A DNA stretch of 43,072 bases from positions 1 through 43,072 of the IMG/VR virus record IMGVR_UViG_3300044675_002196; one strand, 5' to 3'. Positions 9,731-30,396 of the stretch are shown one piece after another. How positions within the stretch are numbered: position 1 is the stretch's first letter; each line of letters opens with the position of its first letter. Below the pieces are notes generated by a model. It was not told where the DNA came from, searched no databases, and saw nothing but the letters and a program-made list of their open reading frames with translations. Both the position numbers and the translations under genes were made by a program. Source of the DNA: a virus.

Positions 9731-10657
9731 TTAGTTTAGCATGTTTAGTATGGCTTTGTCAAATGATTCATCAAGGTTTTTAATATCTTCATTTGTCATA
9801 TCACCAATATCTTTATATTGTTTATCTAGTTGTATCACGCTAACACGAGCACCAAGACGTTCTACAATCTTGGATTTCATGTTACCGCCTGCTTCATCAT
9901 TGTCTGCAATAACTATAATGTTATTGAAGTATTTTTGTAGTAGGTCTATTTGTACATTAGATACGTTGGCTCCTAATGTAGCTACCGCTGGAAATCCACA
10001 CTGGTCTAAACGAATAACATCAAAGGAAGACTCTACAATATAGACCTTGCTTGACGTTTTAACCCTGTGTAGATTAAAGAGAACTTTGCTCTTTGGTAGT
10101 CCTGGTGTGTTCTTAAAGTCTTTTCCCTCAATTGATCTGCCAACAAAACCAACCTCCATACCATCTGGAGAATGAACTGGTATTGTAACCATGTCTTGCT
10201 TTTCAGAAAATCCCAAAGAAAACTTTTTAACAGAATCTTCTGTTATAAGTCTGCCTTCATAGTATCTCATTGCACGTGGAGACTCTAGAGCTTGTGAGTT
10301 TAAACGCTTAATCAAAACTTGGTCATACTGATTGTAGACTGGTTTTTCATGTAATTGTTTTTCAATGTCATAGGCTAAGTCTGCAAGAGTCTCTTTGCTT
10401 TTAATGTATCTTGCTGCCTCAAAATATGTTCTGCCACTCATTGTCATAACTAGCTGAGTAAGATCTGTTACGTGTTGGCAAGCAAAGCAATAAAATAATC
10501 CTGAAGACTTATCAACTTCTCCTGCTGGAGTTCTTGAGTTGTTGTGGTAAGGACAAAATATAATATAATCAGAATCAACCTCAGACATGATGTCTACACC
10601 TGCGCCAGTTAAGACACGTTTAATCTGTTCTTTTGTGTAAACTTCTTTTCTTTTCAT
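9731..10657 (-). CDS. DnaG-type primase, CHC2 zinc domain plus TOPRIM
   Basis: A 308-residue primase, much shorter than bacterial DnaG (about 580) because the C-terminal helicase-binding domain is absent. The zinc ligands are C35, H38, C57 and C60 (CPYH ... CFAC). The RNA polymerase core contains LGFSEKQDMVTIPV and GFVGRSI. The TOPRIM part has E209 (VYIVESSFDV) and the D252/D254 pair in ADNDEAGG. It primes DNA synthesis for the DnaE-type polymerase and should work with the DnaB-like helicase whose gene ends 14 bases upstream. An AGAGGA ribosome site precedes the ATG. Confidence 0.9.
   Translation of the reverse strand: MKRKEVYTKEQIKRVLTGAGVDIMSEVDSDYIIFCPYHNNSRTPAGEVDKSSGLFYCFACQHVTDLTQLVMTMSGRTYFEAARYIKSKETLADLAYDIEKQLHEKPVYNQYDQVLIKRLNSQALESPRAMRYYEGRLITEDSVKKFSLGFSEKQDMVTIPVHSPDGMEVGFVGRSIEGKDFKNTPGLPKSKVLFNLHRVKTSSKVYIVESSFDVIRLDQCGFPAVATLGANVSNVQIDLLQKYFNNIIVIADNDEAGGNMKSKIVERLGARVSVIQLDKQYKDIGDMTNEDIKNLDESFDKAILNMLN
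9733..9762 (-). promoter_or_regulatory. Candidate promoter for the ssDNA-binding protein gene
   Basis: The minus strand reads TTGACA (9762-9757), an 18-base spacer, then TAAACT (9738-9733), with TGC directly before the -10 (extended -10). It overlaps the last codons of the primase gene. The predicted leader to the ATG at 9699 is about 27 bases and includes AAGGAG. Confidence 0.55.
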
Positions 10658-21610: not shown

Positions 21611-22282
21611 TTAGACCTCTTCCAGAGTAACAGAAACATTCCACATATCAAAATTATTTCCACCACGCTTTACAACTGAGTAATTAAAACTTGACACAAA
21701 CATTTGACGAGCTTCAGAATAACCTCTAAGATTTTTGTCGTTAGCAAAAGTAGAATATTTGTCGTAACCAAGCAATACCCAAAAAGGTCCTTTATGATTT
21801 TCATACCAATTCAAAAGATCTATGCCACCAGCTCCGCCATCAACAGTGTATTGAGTTTCTGGACCTAGGCCATCTGCGTCTGGAGACTTTTGACTAAGAG
21901 ATGTAGAAGCGTTTGCTTGATTAAAATTAGGTATAGAACTAAATGATCTTGATGGAAGCATTGACCATGAGGTGTCTATGGTTAGTTTGTCTGCAATAAA
22001 GAATGATCTCATTGTTCCATTTGCCATTCTTTGACGTTGTTCAATTCGTTCATTAGAAACGTTAATTTCAGATCTGTTATGGTCAGAAAGGATTATAAAA
22101 GACTGTTCTAGCTGTTGTGCTGTAAGACCAGTTTCATTAGATCCAAGTTCGTATCCTACAGGAATTAAGTATCCTTCTCCTGTAACTGTTGGAGTCTCAT
22201 CAGCCCATACCATTGCCTGTGGACGACCAGCGGCTGGCCCTCTTAGTCTTCTATTAGACATGTAGTTTTGTGTTACTGTCAT
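21611..22282 (-). CDS. Distal tail (Dit-like) protein
   Basis: A 223-residue protein placed directly after the tape measure gene and before the hub, which is the usual site of the distal tail protein that forms the ring joining tube and tip. Visible features are a basic N-terminus (NRRLRGPAAGRPQAM), a central PNFNQANAS section and a C-terminal strand pair (ARQMFVSSFNYSVVKRGG, DMWNVSVTLEE) that reads like tube-type beta-strands. The start overlaps the tape measure stop (TAATG) with AGGTGA ahead of it. Assignment is mainly by position. Confidence 0.6.
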   Translation of the reverse strand: MTVTQNYMSNRRLRGPAAGRPQAMVWADETPTVTGEGYLIPVGYELGSNETGLTAQQLEQSFIILSDHNRSEINVSNERIEQRQRMANGTMRSFFIADKLTIDTSWSMLPSRSFSSIPNFNQANASTSLSQKSPDADGLGPETQYTVDGGAGGIDLLNWYENHKGPFWVLLGYDKYSTFANDKNLRGYSEARQMFVSSFNYSVVKRGGNNFDMWNVSVTLEEV

Positions 22283-25200
22283 TATCTAATCACCTGTCTT
22301 CTAACTCTTTGAGAATCAATGCCCTGCAATTTTTTCATTACAACATTAGCTATTTGGTCTGGGCTGGCATTTGTACCGTCAACGTTTACACTCAAGCTAT
22401 AATTATACACTGAATTGTCTTGTGATGTCAAAGAAGATGCGGTATTCAATTGACTATTTAGTGGCATAGTTCCACCAGCAGGTGCATAAGCTTTTTCTGG
22501 CATATTGTAAACTGGTTTTGAAAAGTCGTTTGGAACTGTTAATCCAGACGGAGTAGAGTATTTAAAGTTTCCACTATTAATGGCTTGAAGCAATGGTGCA
22601 AATCGTTTTGTTGAAGCTTTATTTACTACAAACTCTCCAGGAGTTAGCATAGATGGAACTGTGTCAGTACCTTTGGCAAATCCTCCACTTGCAAATAAGC
22701 TTGGACTTATCATTCCACCTTTAGCTGCCATTAGCATGCGGCCACCACCTCCACCGCCGCCTGTTGACAGAGCTCCAGCTGCTCTAAGAATAGCGTCTGC
22801 CTGAGCCTTTGTTATTTTTGCAAGATAGCTATTTATCAGTGCCTCTGCTCTGTCCCCAGTAGAGTTACTTACTCCAGCGGCTTTGCGTAGTTCTGCAGAA
22901 ACTTTTGCTGAAATAGCCCTATCATTCATAGCCTGTCTAATCCTATTTGCCTGAGTTGTTGGATTATCAGCATTTGGATCATTTGTTGTAGTAGTTGTAC
23001 TACCGTTACCGCCGCTTCCACCACCACTAGAGGTATGAATAGTGTTAACAACGTGAGTAGTTGTGTAGGTATCGTTTAGTTTACTCCACTCTCCCACAAG
23101 ACCCTGAGCATTTATAAGTGCTTTGGCAACTTCTGCTTCATATAGAGCCGCATTTGCTTTAGACGCATCAATTCTTGTATTGATATTTTCCCATTCAGTT
23201 TTACTTAGACCTTGAACTCTAAGGTTTTCTATTGCGGCTGCAGCTAGTTCATCAGCTAGCTCAACAGCATCCCTTGCATTTTGCAAAGCTCCAAACTCAA
23301 TAGTTTCAATTTCTTTCTTAATTCGTTTAATTTCATCTTCAATTTCAGCCCTAGTTTTTCCATTTTGTGTTAATGCTTTTAGTTCTGCTTGTCTTGATGC
23401 GTCAAGAGCATTGCCAATAGCATCTCCCTGAGCAGCTGCGTTTTGAGCTCTAGAGTCTTGAATTGCTTTGGCCGCTGCGCCAATATCTCCTTGAGACAAT
23501 GCATCAGCAATAGACAGCTGAGACTTTTGCTGATTAATAATATCTTGATTTATCTTCTTTACTTTTTCAAGTGATTTATTCTTTTCATCATAAGCCTTGT
23601 TAATTTCATCTTCTTTTTCAGAAATCTTTTCTAAGTCTCTTTCAAGTTCAGCAGATCTTCTTTGATATACGTCAATTTGCTTTTCAAGGGCTTCAATCAT
23701 TTTTCTAGTTGTAGCAGTTGCAGCTTCATTATTCATGTTTATAATATTTTCTTGAGCATTAAATACATCCATAACCTTTGAGTAAACATCTGCAAAATGC
23801 TCTGCTCTACCTTCTGGTGTTGAGTTTAGCCAAGCCTCTTCTTCTGCCCTAGCTGCTCTAATTGCTGTTACCAGCTCATTCCATTTTTTACTGCCAACTT
23901 TTTCAGATGCTAAAGCAGCAGCAAGCATTGAGTCTTTTGCAATTGTAGTTGCTTCGCCAACTGCAAAGCCAGCAGATCTTAGTTTGGCATAAGCCATGAT
24001 ACTACTCTTAGCTTCTTTTTGTTGCTCTTTAAGTTGATCCATTGCTTGTTGGAATGCAGACTTTTGTCCACCACCACCACCGCCACCTGGCTTTAAACCT
24101 TCTCTTTCTTTCTTTAAAGCATCAAGACCTTCAGCACTGAGTTTAAAAGCATCTACAGCTGCAGTGTTTCCATTAATTGCATCTGTGGCCATGGCTGCTT
24201 TTAGCGCAGCTACCTGAGCGGCATCTCCTGTAAGTTGGTAAGCAAGTTCGGCATCCATTCCTGCAGCAACTAAAGTGTGATAAGCGTCAATTGATGCTTG
24301 AATAGACTCAGCTTCAATGCTGTCTTGTTCTAGAGTATTGCTTAGTTGCTTTGCCTCATTTGCTGCTTGTTGAGCTTTGGTTTGTGTCACTATTGCTGCA
24401 GCAATACGCTTTCTAGCTTTTACTGCGTTGTCCTGTATAGTTTTATTATCTTTGTTTTCTTCTTTGCTAGCCTCTTTTAGAATGTCTAGGTCATCAGAGG
24501 CATCAATCCCAGCAACAGCAGCCTGCAAAGCCAAAGACTTGTCTGCTGCATCTGTTAAGCCTTTAACTACATCTTGAAGTCCCATTTTTTCTGCTAATGA
24601 ATCTAACATCCAAGATGGTTGTTCTGCAGAGTTTAAAGTATTAAACAAGTCAGAAAGTGATTGATTATAAATATCTGCTGATATATTTCCACTTTCAAAA
24701 GCGATGGTTAAAGAGTCAAGTGATGATTTTGCTACACCAGCTGCAGCCTGAGTTTCTTTTTGAGTTTCTGTTTTTACAGTTTGTAGCTGGCTACCTTTGC
24801 CACCTCTTTGAGTAACTCCTTTTGCTTCTTGTTCAGACACTGCTTTGTCAAAGTTTGCAATTGCTTCTTTTGCTAAATCTGCTGCAGCAGTTGCACTACT
24901 TTGATCAGTAATAAAAATTGGTTTGAAGTTTAGCTGTAAATCAGTTTGTTCTGCTTTTGCAGCAATTGATGAAATAATTGCACTGACTGCCTCATCTTCA
25001 AATCCTGAATTACGAAGCTGTGTTGCCAAAGATTCCAATGCAAGTTGTGCTTCTTCTTTAGTTGCATTCTTTATTCCAGAAATTTCTGATGCAAATTCTT
25101 TTTCAAATTCTGGATCTATCATTAAGTCTACAACTTGTTTTTGTTCTTCCGTTGATTTTCCAGAAGTTGCCAACATTGCTTTAGCTCTGTCCGCCCAATT

Positions 25201-28200
25201 AATGCTCTTAGCTGTAACATTAAATTTATCTGCAAGGAATTTTAGCTTTTCTTCGCTTAAGCTAGCTGCGTTGCCAAGGCCCTCAATTCTTTTTCTAGTT
25301 TCTTCTGCAATATGATTGAACAGCATAAACCCGCCAGCAAGAAGAGCTAGTCCTGCTACAACTAATCCGATGGGGCCAAGAGCGGCATACAAAGCTGCAC
25401 CAGTCACGGAGACTGCAGTTCCAAAGACTCCTGTTCCTGCAGTGGCTGCTGCTGTTACTGCTAGCCTAATTGCTTCCTGAACTGCAGCAAGCCTCGCTAA
25501 GGCTTTTTCTGTTATCATAAGGTCTTGATATGCCTTAACTATTGAGATTAATGCAAACAGTCCACCAGAAACCAAAGAAACTGTTCCAGCAACTCCTTGC
25601 ATTTCTCCACCAAACATATAAAGAATACCAGATACTGAAGACAAGGCCATCGTTGCTTGAGACGCTGTATTCATCATCTTGTCCATGTTTGTTTTGGTTC
25701 TTGTGACTGTCTGTCCTAGACCTTGCATTGAACCAGCTACCTGTTGCTCCCTAAGCTCTTTATCGCCCTCACGTGTAACTCTTCTAGGTCCTCTTGGTGT
25801 TCCTGCAACTATGTTTGCTGAGTCTCTAGTTGATTGTGTGTTTTGCTGGTTTCTTCTGTCTATGTCTGCTTGAGTTGCTGGGTCAGAACTTGCCCTTCTT
25901 ATCTTTCCTTGTTGTGCAGCAGTGTTTACTACTGTTTCTCCAAGAACCTCCCCAGCTTTTTTAGCTTCTGGTCCTGCTTCTTGAACTCCAGCTTTAACGT
26001 TATTTGAAAGATTTGTAAATTCTTCAGCTGGAGAGCTTACGCCAAGACCTTTTTCTGTTGCTTTTCTAAGAGACTCTTTTATTCTATCTAAAAATCCATT
26101 TACAAGCTTAGCGGCTGCTTGATCTACTGTAGTACCTACCGCTTCAAGATTTCCCAAAGCTCTTTGTTCAGCAGCCTTAAGTTCTGACTGAACAGCTTCG
26201 TCTCTAACAATCATTGCCGAAATAGTTTTATTATCTCTACCACCAGTAACCTTGACTTTGTTTGCTGGACCAATAAAGTTAGGATCTGCGTTTGCGTACT
26301 CAACGCCACCATCTTCACTCTTGATTCCTCTTGTTGTCATTACGTCTCTGAGTCTTCCACCGCCAGTTCCCCTTGGACCAACTCCAATTGTTAATGCCTC
26401 ATCTTGTACAAACTTAGAAGCTTTAAAGATTTGTTCTTTTAAAGCAAGTTTTGCTGCAACTAGAGCCTCTTCTGCAGTTCCTCCATTTTGGATAACCTTG
26501 TTATATGCTTCTTGAATTATTGCAGTTCTTTCTGCAGCTGCGTTGCGAGCATCTTGTATAGTTTTATACGATGTGTCTTTTAGTGCTGCTTGCTCAAGAG
26601 CTTTTGTAGCGTGATCCATTACAAAGTTGTAATCAGCCTGTACTGCATCAACACTACTTAAGGCTATTCTTGCCTCCTCTCCTTCTTCTGTTAAAAGTCT
26701 TAGTTCATTTGCTAGCTCTGATCCATCGTCTCCAATTCTTTCTAGTTCTATTCCTGCCAGTCTTCCATTTTCAACAACTTCTTCTAAATTGGTTGCACCT
26801 CCAGAAATACCAGCAGCAGTATAGGCCCTTTGATTTCTAACTTTTCCTTCTAAAATTCCAGTAGCTCCAAAACCCTTTCCTCCTACTAAGGCATCGTGCT
26901 CTTCTGGGTCATATCTTTCAACAGCTTCTCCTAAAGTCATAAATCTTTCAGTTACGGTGTTTACCTTTTTTCCAGAATCGTCTACGCTTGTTGTTAACTC
27001 TACGACTCGAATTCTCATATTTCTCAACTCGTCGCTAACCAGAGTTACAGCTCTTGCTGTTTCTAAAAATTCTCTTGGGGAAAAACCTTTTGAGTGAGAA
27101 ACATTCGTTGGGGCAGAGCCATCTTGTCCAAACATACTCTCTAGGTTACTTACTGCTGGAATTTTTACTCCACGGCTATACCCTGGAATATTTCCTGCAA
27201 TCATTGCATTAATTAAGGGTGCATACTTTTTTGCCATTTCTGCAGGTATAACTGCTTCACCAGGAGTTAGCATTGCTGGTGTAACGTCTCCTGCACCCTT
27301 TGGTCCTGGTACGCTAACAATTCCGTTTGCCAATTCAAGTGGGGCTGCCTGTGTTCCAGCCTTTGGCTTAGCTGGTTTTACTGCAGAGTGAATAGCGTGG
27401 AACTTGCTCCAGTCAACACCAAGACCAGCCTCAAGCCTTCTAATCATGTCGTCGTAAACGCCAACCTCTGTTGGATTGGTTAATTTAAAAGATGCAATTG
27501 TTTCTTTAAGTCTTGGAAGAACCTTTTGAATTTCTCCAAGCATCTTAGCCTTATATTGCTCTGGAGTTAGTCCTGCCATCAAGCCTAATGTTGATTCTGC
27601 AAAAGCTCTCTTAGCACCACCCTTAATGCCAAGTAGATTTACAATTGCTTGCTCTTCCATTGATGGAAGATTGTTTTCGTAATCTCTTAAACCAGATGCC
27701 CTGCTAAATACACCAGATGGTCCAGCATCTGCAACAACGTTTCCATAAACGTTTGAGCCAGACAAATCTTTATCAACACGTAGTAGCGATGCAACTAATT
27801 GTCTAAAGTATTGCTCTTCATTAAACAAGCCCATGGGCTGATTATTAACAAACTTTGGATCAAGGTCGGATTCTAATGCCAAGAACCTTCTAGTTCTGGT
27901 TGTATCCATTGGGTCTCTTATTACAACAATTCTTTGTTCTGGTGCTTCTAGACCGTGAGCCCTTCTTGAAATTTCAGTTGATCGCATTTCAGCAAGTGCT
28001 GCTTTTTCGTCTAACACTGGCTTTACGAATACTTGCTTATTACCTTTTTTGTATACCCCGCCAAGACCAAAGATTGGGAAACTGTGTCCAGATGTTGGAG
28101 AAATTTGATGACCATATTCTGTAGGAGCTGTATTTGCATAACTACTCTTTAAGAACATTTCATATATTTCTTGGGAAGCATCTCTATTTTTAGATACAGA

Positions 28201-30396
28201 CTTTGCTGACCTTGGCATTCCAAGCATGACGCCCTTGGCGTACCCTGGAATATTTCCTGCAATCATGCCTTCAATTAGAGGGGCATACTTTTTAACCATC
28301 TCTGCAGGGATAACTGCCTCACCAGGAGTTAGAAGTGCTGGCTCTGTGTCTTTGTTTCCACGACCACCAACAGTTACCACCCCACCCTTTGCCATTTTTA
28401 CTGGAGCAGCAACAGATCCTGGCTTCATCATGCCTGGGTTAAGCATTGCAAACCTAGCCCCTGCGGCCGCTGCTGCCTCGTAGGCGATACGTAACTGGTC
28501 TACTGCAGTCTTTTCTGCTGTAAACCTTTGCGTCAGTCCTGCGTGGGCCTGGTCAAGCGAAGCAGCTGCAGCTGCAGCCTCTAGCTGCTCTTGAGTCATG
28601 TATTGAGTTTCGTCACCAATACCCTTTGCCTGACCAGTCATCTTTAAATAGCCAAGACGAACGGTAGCAAAGAACTTAATCATATTAGCAATACCATTAT
28701 TAATTAGACCAAAAGTCATTAAGAGAACTGGGCCTAAGCCTCCAACAACAGTAACCACAGTTCCAATTATTTGTTTCAGTCCATCTGGAAGACTATTAAA
28801 TGCTTTTAGAACTGTAGTTGCAAAATCAATAAATGGTGTTGCTATCTTTAAGAACATTTCTCCTACTGGTGCAAGAGCCACCTTTAGCTGTTCAACAGAT
28901 GCCTTAAATTTATTCATTGCAGAGGCTGCAGAAACCCCAAGCTCTTTATTTGCCATGTCTGCTAGATCACTTGCTGAGGCTCCAGCTAAATCAAGAACTC
29001 GTGCTGCCTGACTACCATCTTTAACAACGTTGTCAAAAAGTGCTGACATTCTTGCAAACTGGAACTTTCCAAAAAGTTGTTCAATTGCCTGAGCTCTTCT
29101 TTGTGGATCTAGGGTATCTAAGGATTTTGCAAACTCAACTATTGTTCCACTAATATCACCTTTATTTCTAGCAACAATTCCTCTAAGATCAATGCCTAGT
29201 TGGCCAATAAATTGAGTGGCTGACTCTGATGGATTAATTAATGACGCTAAACCAGACTTAAGTGCGTTAGCTCCTTGAGCGGCATTAATGCCACCTTCTT
29301 TCATAGCTGCTAGGAAAAAGGCTAGGTCTCTAACATCTCCACCAAGAGATTGAATAACTGGTGCTACCCTTGGCACAGCTTCAGTAATGTCGTCAAGCGA
29401 TACTACTGTTTGGTTTTCTACTGCGTTAAGAAAGTCAATTTCTCCAGCTAGATTTTGAGATGAAATATTAAAAGCATTTTGCAAAGCAATGGTTGTTTCC
29501 AATGCCTGCTGCAATTCTATTTGTCCAAGTACAGATAGCTTTAGAGCTGCTGTGGTCTGATTTTGTAAAGCTACCCCTTGAAAACCAGCGGCTGCTGCCT
29601 CAGACGCTACCTCTAGAGAGTCTGAAACTGCAACACCATATTTAGTATATGCAAGGCCAAGTTCCATAATGGAATCTAGAGCTTTATTAGTTTCTCCAGG
29701 AGCAGTAAACAAATCTCCATAAACTTTTTTAAACTTGAGTGCTGCTTTTTCCATGTCCATAAAGACACGTCCAGCAGTAATACCAAGACTGGCAAGAGGT
29801 AGAGTAAAACCAACCATAAGCTGACGACCAGCCCACTGAGTATTCTTACCAAAGTTTAGTAGGTTAGTTGATCCTTGCTTAATTAATTGATTAAAGATTA
29901 CTTGTTTTTGAGCAGCGATTGCTGTTTGAGTTCCCAGGTCCTTCATATTAAGGACAGTAGGTCTAATAGCAATAGCTTGCATTGCACCTTGAGCATCACG
30001 ACCCATTTTTACATATTGAGTCTGCAGAGTCTTTACACGCTCTATTGCGGTTTTTTCAATTGTTGCAAACTCTGAGGTAAAGTTTTTACCAAATGTTTTT
30101 GTTTGACTTGCAGCATACCTAAAGTATTGCTGGATAGAGAATTTATTTTTCTCAAGGGAGTTTGTAAATGTTTCTGCACTAGTTCTAACCGTACGTAATT
30201 CTGCAGAAAAACCTTTAATAGCATTTACGCCATTAATAAAGTTCTTCTGCAGATCACGTTGGGCTATGGCTGCAGCTGAAGATGATTTTGCTACTGATTG
30301 GTGAAATTGAGAGATCTGTCGTTGCAGACTCTTAAGCTGATTTAAAGCATCAGATGTATCAATGCTTACGCCAATATTGGCATTAACATCAGCCAT
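22282..30396 (-). CDS. Tape measure protein, 2704 residues, with inserted domains
   Basis: This sets tail length and runs through the tail tube. The N-terminus is coiled coil, then a TP901-type core at about residues 200-500 (LDDITEAVPRVAPVIQSLGG, AFFLAAMKEGGINAAQGANA). Hydrophobic stretches lie near 560-590, 1582-1617 and 1665-1695. Segments with LTPGEAVIPAEM repeat near residues 670-722 and 1023-1075, and a third variant LTPGEFVVNK lies near 2580. Residues about 760-1010, between the first two copies, look like a protein-kinase-like fold. A long coiled coil spans about 2205-2355. By the usual 1.5 angstrom per residue the tail could approach 400 nm, less if the inserts do not span the tube. 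AAGGTG precedes the ATG. Confidence 0.92.
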   Translation of the reverse strand: MADVNANIGVSIDTSDALNQLKSLQRQISQFHQSVAKSSSAAAIAQRDLQKNFINGVNAIKGFSAELRTVRTSAETFTNSLEKNKFSIQQYFRYAASQTKTFGKNFTSEFATIEKTAIERVKTLQTQYVKMGRDAQGAMQAIAIRPTVLNMKDLGTQTAIAAQKQVIFNQLIKQGSTNLLNFGKNTQWAGRQLMVGFTLPLASLGITAGRVFMDMEKAALKFKKVYGDLFTAPGETNKALDSIMELGLAYTKYGVAVSDSLEVASEAAAAGFQGVALQNQTTAALKLSVLGQIELQQALETTIALQNAFNISSQNLAGEIDFLNAVENQTVVSLDDITEAVPRVAPVIQSLGGDVRDLAFFLAAMKEGGINAAQGANALKSGLASLINPSESATQFIGQLGIDLRGIVARNKGDISGTIVEFAKSLDTLDPQRRAQAIEQLFGKFQFARMSALFDNVVKDGSQAARVLDLAGASASDLADMANKELGVSAASAMNKFKASVEQLKVALAPVGEMFLKIATPFIDFATTVLKAFNSLPDGLKQIIGTVVTVVGGLGPVLLMTFGLINNGIANMIKFFATVRLGYLKMTGQAKGIGDETQYMTQEQLEAAAAAASLDQAHAGLTQRFTAEKTAVDQLRIAYEAAAAAGARFAMLNPGMMKPGSVAAPVKMAKGGVVTVGGRGNKDTEPALLTPGEAVIPAEMVKKYAPLIEGMIAGNIPGYAKGVMLGMPRSAKSVSKNRDASQEIYEMFLKSSYANTAPTEYGHQISPTSGHSFPIFGLGGVYKKGNKQVFVKPVLDEKAALAEMRSTEISRRAHGLEAPEQRIVVIRDPMDTTRTRRFLALESDLDPKFVNNQPMGLFNEEQYFRQLVASLLRVDKDLSGSNVYGNVVADAGPSGVFSRASGLRDYENNLPSMEEQAIVNLLGIKGGAKRAFAESTLGLMAGLTPEQYKAKMLGEIQKVLPRLKETIASFKLTNPTEVGVYDDMIRRLEAGLGVDWSKFHAIHSAVKPAKPKAGTQAAPLELANGIVSVPGPKGAGDVTPAMLTPGEAVIPAEMAKKYAPLINAMIAGNIPGYSRGVKIPAVSNLESMFGQDGSAPTNVSHSKGFSPREFLETARAVTLVSDELRNMRIRVVELTTSVDDSGKKVNTVTERFMTLGEAVERYDPEEHDALVGGKGFGATGILEGKVRNQRAYTAAGISGGATNLEEVVENGRLAGIELERIGDDGSELANELRLLTEEGEEARIALSSVDAVQADYNFVMDHATKALEQAALKDTSYKTIQDARNAAAERTAIIQEAYNKVIQNGGTAEEALVAAKLALKEQIFKASKFVQDEALTIGVGPRGTGGGRLRDVMTTRGIKSEDGGVEYANADPNFIGPANKVKVTGGRDNKTISAMIVRDEAVQSELKAAEQRALGNLEAVGTTVDQAAAKLVNGFLDRIKESLRKATEKGLGVSSPAEEFTNLSNNVKAGVQEAGPEAKKAGEVLGETVVNTAAQQGKIRRASSDPATQADIDRRNQQNTQSTRDSANIVAGTPRGPRRVTREGDKELREQQVAGSMQGLGQTVTRTKTNMDKMMNTASQATMALSSVSGILYMFGGEMQGVAGTVSLVSGGLFALISIVKAYQDLMITEKALARLAAVQEAIRLAVTAAATAGTGVFGTAVSVTGAALYAALGPIGLVVAGLALLAGGFMLFNHIAEETRKRIEGLGNAASLSEEKLKFLADKFNVTAKSINWADRAKAMLATSGKSTEEQKQVVDLMIDPEFEKEFASEISGIKNATKEEAQLALESLATQLRNSGFEDEAVSAIISSIAAKAEQTDLQLNFKPIFITDQSSATAAADLAKEAIANFDKAVSEQEAKGVTQRGGKGSQLQTVKTETQKETQAAAGVAKSSLDSLTIAFESGNISADIYNQSLSDLFNTLNSAEQPSWMLDSLAEKMGLQDVVKGLTDAADKSLALQAAVAGIDASDDLDILKEASKEENKDNKTIQDNAVKARKRIAAAIVTQTKAQQAANEAKQLSNTLEQDSIEAESIQASIDAYHTLVAAGMDAELAYQLTGDAAQVAALKAAMATDAINGNTAAVDAFKLSAEGLDALKKEREGLKPGGGGGGGQKSAFQQAMDQLKEQQKEAKSSIMAYAKLRSAGFAVGEATTIAKDSMLAAALASEKVGSKKWNELVTAIRAARAEEEAWLNSTPEGRAEHFADVYSKVMDVFNAQENIINMNNEAATATTRKMIEALEKQIDVYQRRSAELERDLEKISEKEDEINKAYDEKNKSLEKVKKINQDIINQQKSQLSIADALSQGDIGAAAKAIQDSRAQNAAAQGDAIGNALDASRQAELKALTQNGKTRAEIEDEIKRIKKEIETIEFGALQNARDAVELADELAAAAIENLRVQGLSKTEWENINTRIDASKANAALYEAEVAKALINAQGLVGEWSKLNDTYTTTHVVNTIHTSSGGGSGGNGSTTTTTNDPNADNPTTQANRIRQAMNDRAISAKVSAELRKAAGVSNSTGDRAEALINSYLAKITKAQADAILRAAGALSTGGGGGGGRMLMAAKGGMISPSLFASGGFAKGTDTVPSMLTPGEFVVNKASTKRFAPLLQAINSGNFKYSTPSGLTVPNDFSKPVYNMPEKAYAPAGGTMPLNSQLNTASSLTSQDNSVYNYSLSVNVDGTNASPDQIANVVMKKLQGIDSQRVRRQVIR
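22402..22431 (-). promoter_or_regulatory. Candidate promoter ahead of the distal tail gene
   Basis: The minus strand reads TTGACA (22431-22426), an 18-base spacer, then TATAAT (22407-22402). Both hexamers are perfect. It lies inside the 3' end of the tape measure gene, about 120 bases before the distal tail ATG. Coding sequence constrains these bases, so chance remains possible. Confidence 0.5.
22569..22715 (-). repeat. Third, diverged copy of the tape measure segment
   Basis: This encodes GGFAKGTDTVPSMLTPGEF followed by VVNKASTKRFAPLLQAINSG. It aligns with the two copies at 27171 and 28229 in the PxMLTPGE and FAPLLxAI positions, but the rest has diverged. It lies near the C-terminus of the tape measure protein. 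Confidence 0.6.
27171..27331 (-). repeat. Second copy of duplicated tape measure segment
   Basis: This encodes VTPAMLTPGEAVIPAEM, KKYAPLINAMIAGNIPGYS. It is near-identical in protein to the copy at 28229-28394, and the DNA shares CCCTGGAATATTTCCTGCAA on the plus strand. The two copies frame the kinase-like region. Confidence 0.75.
28229..28394 (-). repeat. First copy of duplicated tape measure segment
   Basis: This encodes TEPALLTPGEAVIPAEM, VKKYAPLIEGMIAGNIPGY. The close DNA match to the copy about 1060 bases away suggests duplication around the intervening domain. LTPGE-type segments of this sort are seen in other actinophage tape measure proteins. Confidence 0.75.

Follow-up and report, generated by a model that had tools for sequence, protein, structure and literature searches.

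Introduction

Siphoviruses eject their tape measure proteins (TMPs) into the envelope, and some of these proteins contain enzyme domains (PMC6116005). Like the protein described here, T5 pb2 and the TMPs of mycobacteriophage TM4 and staphylococcal phage vB_SauS-phiIPLA35 hold an enzyme within a tail-borne TMP, but those enzymes are peptidoglycan hydrolases that open the cell wall, not kinases (PMC6116005). TMP enzyme domains known so far are wall hydrolases that aid DNA entry.

Kinases are known from other phage proteins. The T7 gp0.7 kinase is encoded by the phage, but as a separate gene and not within the TMP. 'Gratiaviridae' gut phages encode a HipA-like kinase among their structural genes, again as a separate gene outside the TMP (PMC8008677). 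The 'polyvalent' protein kinases, like the domain described here, are predicted to be injected as part of a multidomain phage or plasmid protein; they do not have the C-terminal subdomain and occur mainly in elements of Verrucomicrobia-Chlamydia and Bacteroidetes (PMC5512222). TMPs with enzyme domains, kinases that are injected, and HipA-like kinases of phages have thus each been described (PMC6116005, PMC5512222, PMC8008677). Our search of the open-access literature turned up neither a TMP that contains a kinase nor a system of linker-bounded cassettes in TMPs.

Tape Measure Protein Gene and Phage Setting

We analyzed a 43,072-nucleotide stretch of viral DNA (IMG/VR record IMGVR_UViG_3300044675_002196), referred to here as the window. 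It contains an uninterrupted frame of 2704 amino acids. Pfam model PF10145 matches residues 252–443 (E = 2.1e-28), and PHROG tape measure families match the same frame with a best E value of 3.3e-103. The gene sits in a late tail operon next to other tail genes, including one for a minor tail protein. Both the core profile and the tail-operon position expected of a TMP are thus present, and by Pfam, PHROGs, and tail-gene setting this frame is a TMP.

22282 to 30396, minus strand: TMP gene, host of the cassette (open frame, PF10145, PHROG TMP families)
29068 to 29643, minus strand: PF10145 minor tail/TMP core, residues 252–443 (Pfam)

The phages bearing the cassette are uncultured and, as we read the collection, of freshwater type. 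Streptomyces phages are nearest to both the TMP N-terminus (~30% identity) and the capsid (~43%), so an actinobacterial host is likely from sequence similarity. The one Streptomyces phage checked among the nearest belongs to Stanwilliamsviridae. The BoomerJR TMP aligns at residues 53–693 and has no counterpart of the kinase cassette.

A Predicted Kinase Fold within the TMP

A preliminary description of this DNA had placed a kinase-like domain at 27720–28115. That interval spans only residues ~761–892, and the full domain extends from residue 724 to residue 1010, with the following elements.

27367 to 28227, minus strand: kinase-like cassette domain, residues 724–1010 (AF2 model, PDB fold matches, absence from sister TMPs)
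28051 to 28089, minus strand: Gly-rich nucleotide loop and start of β2, residues 770–782, GHSFPIFGLGGVY (conservation)
28018 to 28032, minus strand: β3 strand VFVKP, residues 789–793, with putative catalytic Lys792 (K792 in 116/116 and also in the divergent copies collected without motif bias)
27961 to 28008, minus strand: αC helix, residues 797–812, with Glu803 (AF2 helix; E803 in 116/116)
27751 to 27780, minus strand: catalytic loop RVDKDLSGSN, residues 873–882 (R873, D875, D877, and N882 in 116/116)
27721 to 27738, minus strand: predicted metal-binding D-x-G motif VVADAG, residues 887–892 (D890 and G892 in 116/116)
27385 to 27660, minus strand: helical C-lobe, residues 913–1004 (AF2 helices)

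AF2 modeling of the domain with 116 homologues gave a confident structure (pLDDT 90, pTM 0.89); a model from the single sequence (pLDDT 39) was discarded. The elements of the model follow the order β1, Gly-rich loop, β2, β3 with K792 at its end, αC with E803, β4, β5, and αE, and then D877xxxxN882, a short hairpin, D890xG, and the helical C-lobe. Glu803 is the likely salt-bridge partner of Lys792 in this model. From the same element order and topology, we infer that the Lys, Asp, and Asn residues would share a pocket.

The best 50 PDB fold matches listed are all kinases or kinase-fold pseudokinases. They are led by the HipA-type kinase CtkA (prob 0.92) and HipA (0.80), followed by MAP kinases, PINK1, PAN3, and CDK9. 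These matches are modest (best TM ~0.39), and because their E values lie between 0.02 and 0.16, no single one is significant alone; what points to a kinase fold is their consistency, together with the catalytic residues. In a viral structure library, where matches reached prob 1.00, two entries without names pass E < 0.001, and the next one (BFVD A0A6J5MJB0; E 0.0016, prob 1.00) bears the annotation PI3/4-kinase catalytic domain.

The β-rich N-lobe, αC helix, and helical C-lobe of a two-lobed kinase are all found in the AF2 model and agree with the PDB matches. The kinase fold proposed at the outset is therefore borne out by a confident model, by the kinase element order, and by the uniformly kinase-type matches among the best 50 listed. 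The suggested likeness to HipA and PI3/4-kinases holds at the fold level, given CtkA and HipA in the PDB and the annotated viral match. Fam20, also suggested, is absent among the fold matches listed. The model thus predicts a complete small kinase-fold unit of atypical, HipA/PI4K-like layout. With 8 residues, its spacing from Asn882 to Asp890 is short for a kinase; the corresponding Asn–Asp spacing is 18 in HipA of E. coli and about 13 in PKA.

Conservation of Catalytic Residues and Searches for Relatives

Scans of IMG/VR recovered 45, 279, and 246 domain-encoding stretches, from which 116 distinct domain sequences were collected, the copy in the window counted in. Every homologue examined sits in a large TMP-type frame. 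Across these 116 sequences, which share 43–100% identity, K792, E803, R873, D875, D877, N882, D890, and G892 are invariant, and D877 and N882 have the DxxxxN spacing. In the nucleotide loop, G770, S772, F773, P774, and G780 are also invariant, and G779 and Y782 are 98–99% conserved. As some of the scans used catalytic-loop patterns, we rechecked conservation on copies found via the TMP N-terminus only. These copies (L257, L279, L288, and L289) keep K792, E803, D875, D877, N882, D890, and G892, while other positions such as E842 vary; in the listed pairs, the kinase of L288 shares only 33–36% identity with other members. The kinase signature residues (β3 Lys, αC Glu, DxxxxN, and metal Asp) are hence all present in 116/116 sequences and in the copies collected without this bias. 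With seven catalytic residues invariant in 116/116 homologues, the domain is not a product of chance. The preliminary description had located DLSGSN (877–882) and VVADAGPSG (887–895) correctly, and the motifs it quoted, FGLGGVYKKGNKQVFVKP and AEMRSTEISRRAHGL, are present, although the Lys it placed at 788 is residue 792.

Searches of Pfam, PHROGs, NCBIfam, PADLOC, and PDB sequences with the domain returned only chance-level matches. The genome_contigs collection (84,980 species), plasmids, and isolated phages yielded no relative. In 299 proteobacterial genomes there was likewise no relative, and three weak matches were not kinase-like on reading. The domain is a new family within the kinase-fold superfamily, recognized by no profile library searched and with at least 116 distinct members.

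Exchange between Linkers and Selection

Linkers containing 'PGEAVIP' are repeated on both sides of the cassette, and a third lies near the C-terminus of the TMP.

28231 to 28407, minus strand: upstream PGE linker repeat, residues ~664–722, GGVVTVGGRGNKDTEPALLTPGEAVIPAEMVKKYAPLIEGMIAGNIPGYAKG (resembles the copy downstream and the one linker present in kinase-less TMPs)
27160 to 27306, minus strand: downstream PGE linker repeat, residues ~1031–1079 (resembles the single linker of kinase-less sisters)
22525 to 22704, minus strand: third copy of the PGE linker, close to the C-terminus of the TMP, residues ~2565–2624 (motif scan; resembles the L216 linker)

The linker consensus, GGxVxGxGxxDxVPAMLxPGEAVIPxxxxKKYxPLIxGxIxGxIPGY, occurs at module boundaries in most related TMPs. 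The linker may be a processing site, a chaperone site, or a recombination point.

Among the near TMPs, 62 have an intact 3′ end, and 7 of these contain the domain. The sister TMPs L216 (74% identical over residues 1–726) and L217 are without it, and compared to these the TMP in the window has an extra PGE linker after the cassette (residues 1031–1079). The TMP N-terminal regions of L133 and L040 are 98% identical and their kinases 53%; conversely, the kinases of L003 and L004 are 86% identical and their N-terminal regions 54%. Kinase and N-terminal distances are nevertheless correlated (0.65), indicating that exchange is partial. In related TMPs, the position of the cassette shifts from ~724 to ~1227 when it lies behind another module, and in L051 and L052 an additional linker-bounded module precedes kinases that share 80–82% identity with the kinases in the window's group. 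As judged from these alignments, the kinase domain is an exchangeable cassette between PGE linkers.

Pairwise dN/dS values are 0.07–0.17 for the cassette, 0.19–0.32 for the TMP N-terminal region, and 0.49–0.64 for residues 1100–2500; some pairs are close to saturation at synonymous sites. By this measure, the cassette is under purifying selection that is stronger than in the surrounding TMP. Strong selection, sporadic presence, and swapping fit an accessory activity against varied hosts. The invariant catalytic residues and the dN/dS of 0.07–0.17 speak against the earlier suggestion of a possibly degenerate domain.

These data also bear on whether the domain is an inactive structural part that has kept the kinase shape, for example to plug the tail tube or act as a spacer in it. 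TMPs have a structural role, and loss of activity is common among kinase-like folds. Yet all catalytic residues are invariant, even in copies in which most other positions have changed, dN/dS is very low, and presence is sporadic, making an inactive domain highly improbable.

Further Modules in Related TMPs

The TMP of L200 also contains a HAD subfamily IIIB phosphatase module (PF03767, E = 3e-18) at residues 1423–1585 (10038–10526), and L087, L146, L163, L196, and L351–L361 carry this module as well. Within the set, all 14 TMPs that have the HAD module have the kinase, and an independent HAD search gave 11 loci, in each of which (11/11) the frame also encodes the kinase. The nearest solved relatives of the module are P4 NADP phosphatase, class C acid phosphatases, and Pnkp1.

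An active kinase-fold enzyme could instead work in the producer cell at assembly, on tail proteins, the TMP, or a chaperone, and then travel as a passive passenger. Its gene lies in the late tail operon beside tail genes, and linkers and a HAD phosphatase on the same chain could mean an internal phosphorylation switch. However, close sister TMPs assemble without the cassette, which is exchanged independently of the TMP core; accessory cargo therefore suits these observations better than an assembly requirement, and we judge an assembly role improbable.

Some enzymes with a kinase fold catalyze AMPylation or glutamylation and not phosphorylation. After injection, the domain might thus perform such a chemistry, or act on a small-molecule, lipid, or nucleotide substrate. 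Among its best fold matches are HipA-type proteins and proteins annotated as PI3/4-kinases, and not one eukaryotic-type kinase family, its D-x-D-L-x3-N loop is unusual, and its metal hairpin is short. The partner HAD module is like class C acid and NADP phosphatases and Pnkp1, which may hint that the substrate is a nucleotide or RNA. We consider this alternative rather unlikely.

Several other stretches of related TMPs resemble enzymes. A second, different kinase-like module lies at residues ~2000–2249 of L231 (IDNHGGNLY...AIDFG) and residues 3014–3245 of L183 (VDSHDGNLT...LIDFG), the L183 TMP holding both kinase types. This module has no profile match, and a search restricted to its core found it in only two TMPs; a count of 47 TMPs was rejected because the wide C-terminal L231 seed had caught the linker motif. 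Residues 1028–1358 of L070 contain, by eye, a HIGH-type nucleotidyltransferase-like module (AFGAHQPFTTAHE) and then a GNAT-like stretch (PF00583, E = 0.005, below the cut-off). Repeated modules with GPGTYFAEDP or GPGLYTSAT at residues ~1617–2300 of L163 and L200, possibly ADP-ribosyltransferase (ART)-like by eye, have no profile match. The same holds for an HNH-like pattern, seen by eye at residues ~1000–1260 of L027 (HVLPYEAWKQN...NHFTMN), upstream of the kinase.

A tentative reading, on which we are close to evenly divided but lean slightly against, is that TMPs of a large group of uncultured phages are modular cargo racks, with enzyme cassettes between PGE linkers that are fired into the host with the DNA. 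The cargo would comprise the new kinase, the HAD phosphatase, the GNAT-like stretch, possibly nucleotidyltransferase-, ART-, and HNH-like modules, and the second-type kinase.

Discussion

We favor, with reasonable though not strong confidence, residues 724–1010 being a HipA/PI4K-like kinase cassette that is ejected with the TMP and phosphorylates a host target early in infection. Since TMPs are ejected into the envelope, some with hydrolases (PMC6116005), delivery to the host would be, by analogy, the likeliest use of the cassette. For this proposal we infer ATP binding, phosphotransfer, the substrate, ejection, and timing. The cassette would be made late as part of the TMP, sit in the tail tube, and be ejected with the TMP at infection to reach or enter the host membrane. 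There it would use ATP and a metal to phosphorylate its target, with Lys792 and Glu803 positioning ATP, Asp877 (or Asp875) as the putative catalytic base, and Asn882 and Asp890 as candidate metal ligands. A folded domain of 287 residues may misfit the tail-tube lumen, and to be carried there it probably has to unfold or lie at an end of the tube. If the proposal is true, the action would precede expression of any phage gene, and a swappable, strongly selected kinase would make the tail-length ruler a vehicle for early host takeover or counter-defense.

The HipA-type kinases (E. coli HipA; Helicobacter pylori CtkA, PDB 3akk) supply the best PDB fold matches and share the order of Gly-rich loop, β3 Lys, αC Glu, DxxxxN, and metal Asp with the cassette. 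The corresponding elements are HIIKLP...NEYYCLLLAKELGLNVP...TDGHAKN...YDI in HipA and VFVKP...EMRSTEISRRAHGLEAP...DKDLSGSN...ADAG in the cassette. In sequence, an hhalign comparison of the cassette to 47 HipA sequences was negligible (prob 0.4%), and HipA_C (PF07804) gave no Pfam match in any of 33 cassette members. The 287-residue cassette has no HipA N-terminal part and no adjacent HipB-type antitoxin gene, its neighbors being tail genes, and unlike HipA it is embedded between TMP segments. The phage PI3/PI4-kinase-like protein A0A6J5MJB0 matches in fold (prob 1.00) but is only 14% identical, and the cassette has no profile match to PF00454 (PI3/PI4-kinase). The cassette is thus HipA/PI4K-like in layout yet falls outside both families. 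It differs from the 'polyvalent' kinases in having a TMP as its carrier and in its predicted C-lobe, which the AF2 model shows as helical up to residue 1004. The set of exchangeable modules, read as cargo, would resemble polymorphic toxins, with the difference that the tail-length ruler itself contains them.
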